A stretch of 46,499 nucleotides of DNA, from contig JAFWFL010000070.1 in NCBI GenBank assembly GCA_017515595.1, positions 1-46,499 of the forward strand. The letters are read 5' to 3'. The translations under genes were made by a program, and so were the position numbers. The stretch comes from Coriobacteriales bacterium (GTDB taxonomy: Bacteria > Actinomycetota > Coriobacteriia > Coriobacteriales > UMGS124). Below the pieces are notes generated by a model, which made no database searches, was not told the DNA's origin, and saw nothing but the letters and a program-made list of their open reading frames with translations. Of this stretch, positions 41,550 to 45,241 are shown in pieces (position 1 is the first letter of the stretch; each line of letters starts with the position of its first letter).

Positions 41550-41578
41550 TTGCATTATGTGGCTATGTGCGGTAGAGT
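41550..41578 (+). promoter_or_regulatory. Promoter of the ECF/attenuator operon
   Basis: TTGCAT (41550-41555) and TAGAGT (41573-41578) are separated by an ideal 17 bases. A palindrome TTGTTAACAA at 41533-41542 lies just upstream and may be an operator. Initiation near 41585 would give a leader of about 300 bases containing the attenuator. Confidence 0.6.
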
Positions 41579-41637
41579 ACGCAAAGCACGCCAATAGGGG
41601 CAGGTTGTTACGAGTGATGAAGGGGGGTTTGGCCAAG

Positions 41638-41706
41638 ATGAAGAACAGTGTTATGTCGGCACAATTCAACTGGTGGTGGCAAGGCTGTGAATCTTTTGGT
41701 CGATGA
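41638..41706 (+). CDS. Trp-rich leader peptide (attenuator)
   Basis: A 22-codon frame starts at ATG 41638 with AAGGGGGG ten bases upstream and ends with TGA 41704-41706. Codons 12-14 are TGG TGG TGG (41671-41679), preceded by Phe-Asn and followed by Gln-Gly. Three adjacent Trp codons in a short, well-initiated frame followed by an intrinsic terminator are the hallmark of a trp leader peptide. Ribosome stalling here would sense charged tRNA-Trp. Confidence 0.85.
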   Translation: MKNSVMSAQFNWWWQGCESFGR

Positions 41707-41771
41707 CCCGGGCTTTGTCACCTTTTGAGCAGACATGGTAAGGCTCCCGGCATCGGCCCGGGAGCCTTTTT
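41675..41771 (+). promoter_or_regulatory. trp-type transcription attenuator before the ECF genes
   Basis: Four segments follow the classical layout. Segment 1, GGTGGCAAGGC (41675-41685), overlaps the last Trp codons and pairs over 11 positions with segment 2, GCTTTGTCACC (41712-41722; two G-T pairs). CCGGG and CTT at 41708-41715 can instead pair with AAG at 41740-41742 and CCCGG at 41746-41750, giving an antiterminator. Segments 3 and 4, GGCTCCCGG (41742-41750) and CCGGGAGCC (41758-41766), form the terminator with TTTTT. With low Trp, stalling on codons 12-14 frees segment 2 to block the terminator. Confidence 0.8.
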
Positions 41772-41884
41772 GTTTGCCGCAAAAGGCACGTACTTCTCGG
41801 CTTTTTATTGCGCGTTACGCTCTTCTGCTGTGAGGCGCCCCAAAGAGAGGGCAGCCGCAGTCTACCAAGAAAGAAGGTTTTACC

Positions 41885-42487
41885 ATGAGCGAAAATATTA
41901 CCACTGCTAACCAGCAACCCCGTACCGCCCGCGTTGTATCCCAGACCCAAGAGAAAAAAGGCCTCACCACGCAAGACCTTATTCTCATTGCCGTGCTTTT
42001 GGCGGCTGGTGCCGTTCTCAAGCTTACCGTTGCTTCATTCTTTGCTTCGTTTGGTATGAAGCCCAACTTTATTATTGCCATGTATTGCCTGGCTATTATT
42101 CTCACCAAACCCTCGGTGCTCCAATCTACCATTATTGGTCTCATTGCCGGCCTTATTTGCCAGATTCCCATGCTCAATGCAACACCGTTCTTGAACATTG
42201 TTTCGGAGACCCTCGGTGCTTTGGTATGCGGCCTCTTGATTAAGGTTAACATGAACCCGGGTGGCAAGTTTGACCTCAATCCGACCGTGAATACCTTTAT
42301 ATCTACCTGTGTTTCGGGCGGCACCTTTGCTTTAATGGCCATCTTTATTAACGTGATTCTGCCCGGTACCGGCGGCGTAGAAGCAGCTATCGCAGCTTAT
42401 GCAGCCATTGTTTTGGGCACCGCAACCTTTAACGCCGTTCTCAACACCATTCTGGTTCCTCCGCTGCGCAAGGTTCTTAAGAAGTAA
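41885..42487 (+). CDS. ECF transporter S component, TrpP-like (predicted tryptophan)
   Basis: This 200-residue integral membrane protein has a soluble N-terminus of about 27 residues and about six helices. FGMKPNFIIAMYCLAIIL corresponds to the GMKPD region of tryptophan transporter TrpP, the substrate-binding S subunit of some ECF systems. The substrate is inferred from this resemblance together with the trp attenuator in front of the gene. ATG 41885 follows AGAAGG. The energising A1, A2 and T genes follow after a hairpin-rich gap, so this is a dedicated (group I) ECF operon. Confidence 0.8.
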   Translation: MSENITTANQQPRTARVVSQTQEKKGLTTQDLILIAVLLAAGAVLKLTVASFFASFGMKPNFIIAMYCLAIILTKPSVLQSTIIGLIAGLICQIPMLNATPFLNIVSETLGALVCGLLIKVNMNPGGKFDLNPTVNTFISTCVSGGTFALMAIFINVILPGTGGVEAAIAAYAAIVLGTATFNAVLNTILVPPLRKVLKK

Positions 42488-42516: not shown

Positions 42517-42639
42517 AGTGCAAGTTGTTACGGGTGCTAGCATGAGAACAGACAAAAATCGAGGAGTTTCTCGGCAAAAGCCCAGGAAATATGATCCTTT
42601 TAGGGTTTGATCATGCTAGCGCCCGTAACAACTTGCACT
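42517..42639. repeat. 29-bp long-arm hairpin between the S component and ecfA1
   Basis: Left arm 42517-42545 (AGTGCAAGTTGTTACGGG...) and right arm 42611-42639 are complementary over 29 bases with one G-T pair, enclosing 65 bases. Parts of the left arm recur at 34572-34596 and more weakly at 41601-41620. It may moderate readthrough from the S gene into the ATPase genes, or be a mobile inverted-repeat element. Confidence 0.75.
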
Positions 42640-42754: not shown

Positions 42755-43594
42755 ATGATTGAGATAAAAGACTTTACCTTTAGATATCGCGAAAGCAGCG
42801 AGCCGGTTGTAAAAGATATCAACCTGACCATTCCTGACGGAGCGTTTGTGGGTATTACCGGCGCTGCCGGCTCGGGCAAGTCTACGCTGACTTATGCCAT
42901 GAACGGGATTATTCCCCATTGCTACCCCGGAGATTTTTACGGAAGTGTCACTATCAACGGGCTCGACACGGTTGACAGCTCGCTCACTGACATAAGCCGG
43001 CTTGTGGGCAGTGTTTGCCAGGACATTGACAGCCAGATGGTGACCTCGGTTGTTGAGGATGAGATGCTCTATGGTCTCGAAAACTTTGGCATACCTCACA
43101 GCGAGATAGACGCGCGTGTGACTCAGGCCTTGAGCGATATGGGTATTCTCGATTTGCGCGACCGCACCATTGACTCTTTGAGCGGCGGCCAAAAGCAAAA
43201 GCTTGCGATTGCGAGCATTATGGCTTTGCAGCCCAAGGTCCTGATGCTCGACGAACCCACGGCCGAGCTTGACCCCGCCAGCTCATTTAATGTATTTAAG
43301 CTGCTCCAGACCTATGCTCAGACTCACGGAACCACCGTTGTTGTGGTGGAGCAAAAAATCGCGCTTCTGAGCGAGTTTGCCACCATGATGGTTATTGTTG
43401 ACAAAGGGCAGATTCGCTATGCAGACTCTCCCGAGAAGGTCCTTGCGCACAGCGATGACCTGCTTGAGATAGGCGTTAACTGTCCGCGTGCGACCACGTT
43501 TACCAACCGTCTGCGCTCGCGCGGTATTTACCAAGGGCCTATTTGCCGCAATGTTAACCAGGCAGTAGCTGCTTTGGCAGAGGTGATCGCATGA
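42755..43594 (+). CDS. ecfA1: ECF transporter ATPase EcfA1
   Basis: This 279-residue ABC ATPase has Walker A GAAGSGKST (36-44), signature LSGGQKQ (142-148) and Walker B VLMLDEP. The position of the switch His is Gln (VVEQK, Q200), which is unusual and suggests weak hydrolysis at the site formed by its own Walker motifs. ATG 42755 is chosen because an upstream extension to 42716 is not conserved-looking; the binding site is weak. It overlaps ecfA2 by 4 bases (ATGA), so the two ATPases are coupled. Confidence 0.9.
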   Translation: MIEIKDFTFRYRESSEPVVKDINLTIPDGAFVGITGAAGSGKSTLTYAMNGIIPHCYPGDFYGSVTINGLDTVDSSLTDISRLVGSVCQDIDSQMVTSVVEDEMLYGLENFGIPHSEIDARVTQALSDMGILDLRDRTIDSLSGGQKQKLAIASIMALQPKVLMLDEPTAELDPASSFNVFKLLQTYAQTHGTTVVVVEQKIALLSEFATMMVIVDKGQIRYADSPEKVLAHSDDLLEIGVNCPRATTFTNRLRSRGIYQGPICRNVNQAVAALAEVIA

Positions 43595-44466
43595 TAGAGT
43601 TCAGGAATGTATACGCCTCGTACAACCCGCAGATCCCCATTCTTAAGAATGTAAGCTTTACCGTGAATGACGGCGATTTTGTCGCGTTTGTAGGCACAAA
43701 CGGCGCGGGTAAATCTACTACGATGCGCCTTATGAACGGGCTTCTTAAGCCAGACCAAGGTGAGGTTCTCATAGACGGAACGCCCACCACGGAGCTCAAA
43801 ACCAGCGAGATGGCGCGCCGCGTGGGTTATTTGTTCCAGAATCCTGACCACCAGATTTGCTGTAATACCGTGCGTGAAGAACTCATGTTTGGTTTCAAGG
43901 CTCTGGGAATTCATACGGCAGAAGCCGAGGAACGCGTTGACAAGATTATTGCCGAATTTGGGTTTAATCCTTCTGATGACCCGTTCCTGCTGAACCGCGG
44001 TACGAGGCAGCTTTTGGCTCTTGCCTCCATCATTGTTATGGAGCTGCCCGTTATCATTCTTGACGAGCCTACAACCGGTCTTGATTTCCGCGAGTGCATA
44101 AAGGTCATGGAGATTGTCAAGCGCCTCCATGAACAGGGGACAACGGTGGTCATGGTATGCCACGACATGGAAGTTGTGGCAGATTATGCCAAGCGTGTTA
44201 TCGCCATGACCCACGGCAGGCTTGTTGCTGACGGAGAAACCTTTGAGGTTCTCCGCGATGCGGTTACCCTTGCGACAGCAGATCTGATTCCGCCCCAGGC
44301 TACGGCACTGTCTATGGGCCTGGTGGATGCACATCCCAGTTTAGCCGCTACAGACCTGGCCAGTGCAAACACCATCGAAGCGCTCGAAGAGGCATTTGTA
44401 TCTTATGTAAACGCCTTACCGGGCAACGCTTATGAAGCTTCTTCTGAACAAGGACAAGGTGAGTAA
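43591..44466 (+). CDS. ecfA2: ECF transporter ATPase EcfA2
   Basis: This 291-residue ABC ATPase has Walker A GTNGAGKST (35-43), Q-loop FQNPDHQ, Walker B VIILDEP and switch His in CHDME (H191), all intact. The ABC signature is NRGTRQ at 135-140 instead of LSGGQ. In a heterodimer, EcfA1's signature completes this subunit's good site while this signature completes EcfA1's defective one. A C-terminal extension of about 55 residues is Ala/Ser-rich. The start overlaps ecfA1 by 4 bases. Confidence 0.9.
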   Translation: MIEFRNVYASYNPQIPILKNVSFTVNDGDFVAFVGTNGAGKSTTMRLMNGLLKPDQGEVLIDGTPTTELKTSEMARRVGYLFQNPDHQICCNTVREELMFGFKALGIHTAEAEERVDKIIAEFGFNPSDDPFLLNRGTRQLLALASIIVMELPVIILDEPTTGLDFRECIKVMEIVKRLHEQGTTVVMVCHDMEVVADYAKRVIAMTHGRLVADGETFEVLRDAVTLATADLIPPQATALSMGLVDAHPSLAATDLASANTIEALEEAFVSYVNALPGNAYEASSEQGQGE

Positions 44467-44467
44467 C

Positions 44468-45241
44468 ATGAGCGCATTCCTTGAATACGTACCGGGTACC
44501 AGCCTTGCTCACAAGCTCAACCCCATCGCCAAGCTGTTCTTCTCGTTTGTATTTGCTATTGCATGCTTTTGCACGAGTAATATCTTCTTTTTGCTGGGAA
44601 TGCTCGCATTTGCATTTTGTATAGCCTTAAGCTGCGGCATGCGCAAGCAGACCATTGGACTCATGAAGGCTGTGTTTGCATTCTCCCTCTTGCTTGCTGT
44701 TATTCAGGTGCTTACCACTCCTTCTGGCACTCAGCTTATTGAGCTGCCCTGGGGCTATATTGGTACGGGCAGCCTTCTTGCCGGAGCGACTACCATTGTG
44801 CGCCTTACCGCCGCGGCGATCCCGCTGTTCCTAACATTTTATGTGACCAAGATTAACGATATCACCAACAGCGTGGTCAAGGTGCTCCATGTGCCATATA
44901 AGTATGCGTTTACCTTCTCGTCCACCGTGCATTTTATTCCGGTATTTATGAACGATATGAAGGGTATTATGGAAGCTCAGACCGCCCGCGGTGTTGAGTT
45001 TGACAAGGGCGGCATCATCAACAAAATCCGCCTTATGGTTCCTCTGTGTGTGCCGCTTTTGGTCTCGAGTGTTCGCAAGACAAACAGCGCTGCGATTGCG
45101 GCTGAGGTGCGCGGATTCAACCTGCGCACACGCGAAAGCGGATACAAGCAATATCCCTTTACCGGCATGGATATCGCGGTCATGGTGCTGGCGGTTGTGC
45201 TGCTTGGCGTGGCTATTGCGCTCGGAGTTTTGGGAATCTAA
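44468..45241 (+). CDS. ecfT: ECF transporter transmembrane component EcfT
   Basis: EcfT couples the ATPases to the S component. The 257-residue protein has about five membrane helices and two coupling-helix motifs, AQTARGVEFD and AAEVRGFNLRT, each with the Arg-Gly pair (the second lacks the canonical Ala). ATG 44468 lies one base after the ecfA2 stop, preceded by AAGGACAAGG, so the start is well supported. The GTSLAHKLNPIAKL N-terminus is typical. Confidence 0.9.
   Translation: MSAFLEYVPGTSLAHKLNPIAKLFFSFVFAIACFCTSNIFFLLGMLAFAFCIALSCGMRKQTIGLMKAVFAFSLLLAVIQVLTTPSGTQLIELPWGYIGTGSLLAGATTIVRLTAAAIPLFLTFYVTKINDITNSVVKVLHVPYKYAFTFSSTVHFIPVFMNDMKGIMEAQTARGVEFDKGGIINKIRLMVPLCVPLLVSSVRKTNSAAIAAEVRGFNLRTRESGYKQYPFTGMDIAVMVLAVVLLGVAIALGVLGI

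Follow-up and report, generated by a model that had tools for sequence, protein, structure and literature searches.

In ribosome-dependent trp attenuators, a short leader ORF carries two or three UGG codons in tandem, and the RNA can form a terminator as well as an antiterminator and a 1:2 hairpin. Actinobacterial examples precede trp biosynthesis genes and some tRNA-synthetase genes, having been described upstream of trp operons, trpS and leuS in work that does not mention Coriobacteria (PMC1262725). The leader analysed here has the same parts but serves an importer, and no trp synthesis genes were detected in its genome. The T-box with a UGG specifier (RF00230) likewise senses tRNA-Trp charging and controls a terminator, and it precedes orthologs of the S-component gene discussed below; it differs in reading uncharged tRNA directly, with no leader peptide, and when T-box sequence and stem I were sought in our leader both were absent.

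Two further systems bear on Trp uptake. In Escherichia coli, TnaC, the leader peptide of the tnaCAB operon, is a Trp sensor that regulates a Trp permease gene; its cue is free Trp in excess, and it works through Rho. Unlike tnaC, our leader has an intrinsic terminator and tandem Trp codons. The Bacillus subtilis Trp transporter gene trpP is controlled by the TRAP protein, not by a leader peptide.

We conclude, with a probability of about nine in ten, that the locus is a classical ribosome-mediated trp attenuator upstream of an ECF-type tryptophan importer operon (S-A-A-T). The initial annotation had proposed a trp attenuator, and the proposal is borne out by conserved WWW codons, covarying alternative stems, Trp-related target genes, a Trp T-box at orthologs and a host without trp synthesis genes. 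In the openly accessible literature, to which our search was confined, no paper found ties a Trp leader peptide or T-box to an ECF importer or to this order; within that scope, there seems to be no earlier report of an importer as target, of this clade or of the exchange with T-boxes. What follows gives good support to the observation: the mechanism is known, its target seems not to have been reported, and regulators have been exchanged with unusual clarity.

The leader and its operon

All features given here lie on the + strand of the window, the whole 46.5 kb stretch of DNA analysed. The leader encodes a 22-codon peptide, MKNSVMSAQFNWWWQGCESFGR (ATG at 41638–41640, TGA stop at 41704–41706), whose codons 12–14 are TGG (41671–41679), exactly where three consecutive Trp codons had been claimed. 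The sequence TGGTGGTGG occurs once on the + strand of the window and never on the − strand. Compared with dinucleotide shuffles, the fold of the leader is better by 4.1 sd (z −4.1), and none of 200 shuffles was as good.

The 1:2 hairpin (41676–41721) pairs the Trp codons and the bases after them (41676–41686) with 41711–41721 in 11 contiguous pairs, as the initial annotation had anticipated. The competing antiterminator that it had also predicted (41698–41758) was recovered from folds of truncated transcripts, a shuffle control and covariation: 41698–41705 and 41707–41720 pair with 41735–41758. Its core joins 41698–41705 (GGTCGATG), which overlaps the last codons and the stop of the leader peptide, to 41751–41758 (CATCGGCC), with an extension between 41707–41720 and 41735–41749; in a transcript ending at 41760 it amounts to −25.6 kcal/mol. 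The intrinsic terminator (41740–41771), an 11-pair stem (41740–41768) followed by the T5 already noted, has −21.6 kcal/mol alone and stands 114 nt upstream of the ECF S-component gene. With the Trp-codon region masked, successive transcript ends fold into the antiterminator up to 41764 and into the terminator from 41766 on, a shift that matches the need of a transcription-coupled switch.

The expression signals are weaker than had been claimed. The supposedly good promoter is a candidate, TTGCAT – 17 nt – TAGAGT (41550–41578), with three of six consensus matches in the −35 (TTGCAT, 41550–41555) and four of six in the −10 (TAGAGT, 41573–41578), and a consensus promoter scan does not flag it. 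Of 93 leaders, 83 are nonetheless preceded, at a distance of 35–75 nt, by a −10-like hexamer (at least four of six matches). As for the ribosome binding site, AAGGGGGG is less canonical than the sites of most relatives and falls short of the strong site described. Within the leader 5′ UTR, 17 nt (41600–41616) match, at 15 positions, one end (42520–42536) of a palindromic element inside the operon; the pattern common to both has no further occurrence in the genome.

Four genes follow the terminator. A TrpP-like ECF S component of 200 aa with six helices (41885–42487) was recognized from homologs, an AlphaFold model and Foldseek. Two ECF ATPases (42758–43594 and 43591–44466) both match PF00005, their best NCBIfam matches being TIGR04520 (ECF_ATPase_1) and TIGR04521 (ECF_ATPase_2) respectively, each below cutoff. 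The CbiQ-family T component (44432–45241; PF02361) has a true start that is probably downstream of the given ORF start. The palindromic element, of about 120 bp (42517–42639) with 42-nt arms that are 83% complementary, separates the S gene from that of the first ATPase. About 39 similar copies, roughly 74–84% identical, are found elsewhere in the genome, which suggests a MITE or REP-like repeat.

The claimed resemblance of the S component to TrpP holds through its homologs and its fold rather than through the window protein itself, for which Pfam gave no match, TrpP (PF17099) included. PF17099, the family of B. subtilis TrpP, was matched by 15 of 20 aligned homologs at E ≤ 0.001 and exceeded the cutoff in the S proteins of L020 and L080. 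The AlphaFold model (pLDDT 84) has six helices, and its best Foldseek matches in the PDB are ECF S components (probability 1.00, E about 0.05–0.1, none below 0.05); when the S alignment was run as a profile against the sequences of solved structures, nothing matched. We class the protein as an ECF S component on this six-helix S-component fold beside ECF A, A and T genes. The Corynebacterium glutamicum ‘TrpP’ (PMC11995493) was set aside: it is an SdpI-type protein, unrelated despite its name.

Conservation, covariation and target genes

A covariance model was built from 12 aligned leaders, the window leader among them, whose consensus fold comprises the 1:2 stem and the terminator. At E ≤ 0.01 it matched 177 of the order’s 397 genomes. 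The weakest matches (a tail at about 0.001–0.01) may be chance; among the matches listed, about 140 lie below 1e-5. The 62.5-bit score of the window leader is not independent, since that leader belongs to the building set. As judged from these matches, the predicted WWW leader is not peculiar to the host genome, and its family is spread through the order. Outside the order, a searched sample of the phylum gave marginal matches only (E about 1e-4), and no Rfam family, Trp_leader included, came near its gathering threshold on the window leader.

The initial annotation had staked its reading in advance on conservation in relatives, and both the Trp codons and the stems are kept. About 100 leaders were read, and nearly all of them retain WWW. 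The relatives’ peptides, for example MNRIATNAARTSMNWWWRDSQTVGRL, MKNTMKSLNNWWWRDANTIGRQ and MARTVCISVASSNTMNWWWRGVETIGRS, each ending at a stop codon, are preceded by good ribosome binding sites, and their last residues are conserved, with GR before the stop in most. A looser criterion, WW in any upstream frame, was dropped in favour of the covariance model, as it gave chance hits and missed real cases.

Covariation was measured in 62 non-redundant leaders with 1000 permutations per helix. Within-sequence pairing was 15.7 against 13.9 permuted for the 1:2 helix and 18.4 against 16.1 for the antiterminator, and for neither helix did any permutation reach the observed value; shared ancestry can contribute to passing such a test on related sequences. 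In the 1:2 helix, relatives carry the exchanges GGCGCGA/TCGCGCC and GGCGTGA/TCACGCC. In the antiterminator, where the window has GGTCGATG/CATCGGCC, they carry CGGTCGA/TCGACCG, CGGTCAAC/GTTGACCG, CGGATTA/TAATCCG and CGGATCA/TGATCCG, partly in the terminator loop, where the terminator itself imposes no constraint. Despite the possible share of ancestry in the permutation result, we take these individual exchanges as telling signs of a predicted antiterminator helix. ‘Stalled’ truncated transcripts formed 9–17 antiterminator pairs in all 62 leaders, with at least 11 pairs in 98% of leaders as against 10% of shuffled controls. In full-length folds, the terminator was not the minimum-energy form in 10 of the 62. 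The locus thus has what characterizes a trpL-type attenuator, namely a Trp-rich short ORF, 1:2 pairing and an antiterminator exclusive with the terminator, with codons and helices conserved.

The genes behind these leaders point to the same signal. An S-protein homolog is encoded in 234 of the 397 genomes; in the host’s own family of three genomes, the S gene is found only in that of the window. Among 30 leader loci with flanks, a TrpP-like S gene lies at most 400 nt downstream in 29, that is, in all 29 that are evaluable, the contig end cutting the thirtieth (L214). A WWW leader, with a peptide ending for example in SRAWWWRGL, also stands upstream of a sodium-dependent transporter of the NSS family (L222–L228, L230), which is a candidate symporter for Trp, and a divergent one upstream of a TrpB-like gene (TIGR01415; L231, L232, L237, L239, L240). 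All three target classes can concern Trp supply, and they therefore lend independent support to Trp being the signal. In two other families, many genomes (L184–L187, L190 and L191) have a tandem pair of TrpP-like S genes behind one leader.

The host genome (97.7% complete) contains no member of the chorismate-binding family (TrpE-type) and no TrpA or TrpB-like match above cutoff. Because TrpE, TrpA and TrpB were not detected, the host is very probably a Trp auxotroph, as read from its gene content; an assembly gap could hide one trp gene but hardly all of them. Attenuation would here serve import, in an organism apparently unable to make tryptophan.

Predicted mechanism and alternative explanations

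When charged tRNA-Trp is plentiful, the ribosome would pass WWW to the stop at 41704–41706 and cover the 5′ strand of the antiterminator; the terminator stem (41740–41768) would then form and transcription would stop short of the S gene. Under a shortage of charged tRNA-Trp, the ribosome would stall on 41671–41679 and prevent the 1:2 hairpin, which would leave 41698–41720 free to pair with 41735–41758. Such pairing would consume the 5′ arm of the terminator, its loop and the first bases of its 3′ arm, and the importer would be transcribed. The distances masked by stalled and terminating ribosomes are general knowledge. We infer both the direction of the response and the actual termination.

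The terminator might merely end the upstream asparaginyl-tRNA synthetase gene, the WWW ORF having arisen by chance, and its position about 220 nt past the asnS stop (41517) on the same strand would suit this. The leader and terminator nevertheless recur before S genes in many other genomes, with WWW conserved and the helices covarying, and TGGTGGTGG is found only that one time in the window. Because of this conservation of the predicted leader, we regard such a coincidence as effectively refuted. It is scarcely less improbable that free Trp stalls the ribosome near the stop, as in TnaC, with expression on when Trp is in excess. The conserved last residues of the peptide could be read in that way, but the sequence encoding them doubles as the conserved antiterminator strand, and a ribosome waiting at the stop would cover that strand. 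The tandem arrangement of three Trp codons and the overlap of an antiterminator strand with the stop fit a sensor of tRNA charging instead. At orthologs the regulator is a UGG T-box, a device that answers to uncharged tRNA-Trp.

The attenuator could also be real and the importer carry a Trp-related compound, such as indole, kynurenine or 5-hydroxytryptophan, since the leader reports tRNA-Trp charging and not the substrate. At L231 and L232 a TrpP-like S gene directly follows the TrpB-like gene, an arrangement that would also fit indole salvage. We consider this unlikely: the homologs match the TrpP family, to which the B. subtilis Trp transporter belongs, and the host has no trp synthesis genes or TrpB-like enzyme above cutoff, so that indole could not replace Trp there. 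The initial annotation held that the attenuator identifies the substrate; the predicted response to charged tRNA-Trp is upheld, and for that very reason Trp as the transported compound is something that we strongly infer rather than prove. A family of ECF importers with poor annotation can thereby be assigned tryptophan with good confidence.

T-boxes at orthologous S genes

The closest homologs of the window’s S protein (62–80% identical) have T-boxes upstream of their genes and no WWW leader. The T-box of L002 scored 65.7 bits (E = 5e-14), the RF00230 gathering score being 93 bits, and most of 20 further sources gave matches of 53–109 bits. An Rfam search of the relatives’ upstream regions at the gathering threshold returned no match, although T-boxes are visible in the sequences. 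UGG-specifier T-boxes before TrpP-like S genes (L002–L019, L083–L182) mostly score 53–81 bits, and gathering-level Rfam annotation misses them because they fall below 93 bits. The absence of any riboswitch at the relatives’ S genes was accordingly ruled out as a reading. A cobalamin riboswitch, considered for Clostridia homologs with WW-containing upstream frames, received no support from Rfam, and several of those homologs have T-box motifs.

Among 107 S loci of the order, a sample that was picked by similarity to the window’s S gene and favours one family, and so is not a census, 92 have a T-box sequence and 11 a WWW leader; the other 4 lack both. Automatic parsing gave 75 T-box specifiers, every one of them TGG (UGG, Trp). 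When 125 S proteins are placed in a quick tree, the window protein falls among T-box carriers with branch supports of 88–93, and the two states require at least five changes, an approximate count given several modest supports and some long branches. Such a tree does not separate exchange in place from gene transfer.

We think it likely that, within one order, genes for Trp supply (ECF-TrpP, the NSS transporter and the TrpB-like enzyme) form a regulon under a WWW leader-peptide attenuator, and that T-box and leader peptide, unrelated RNA devices that read tRNA-Trp charging, have replaced each other several times before orthologous importer genes. The loci offer a natural series, with either regulator before the same gene, in which the replacement of one RNA regulator by another can be studied directly. 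At L176, a second T-box (109 bits, + strand) lies near the S-gene T-box, which is on the opposite strand.
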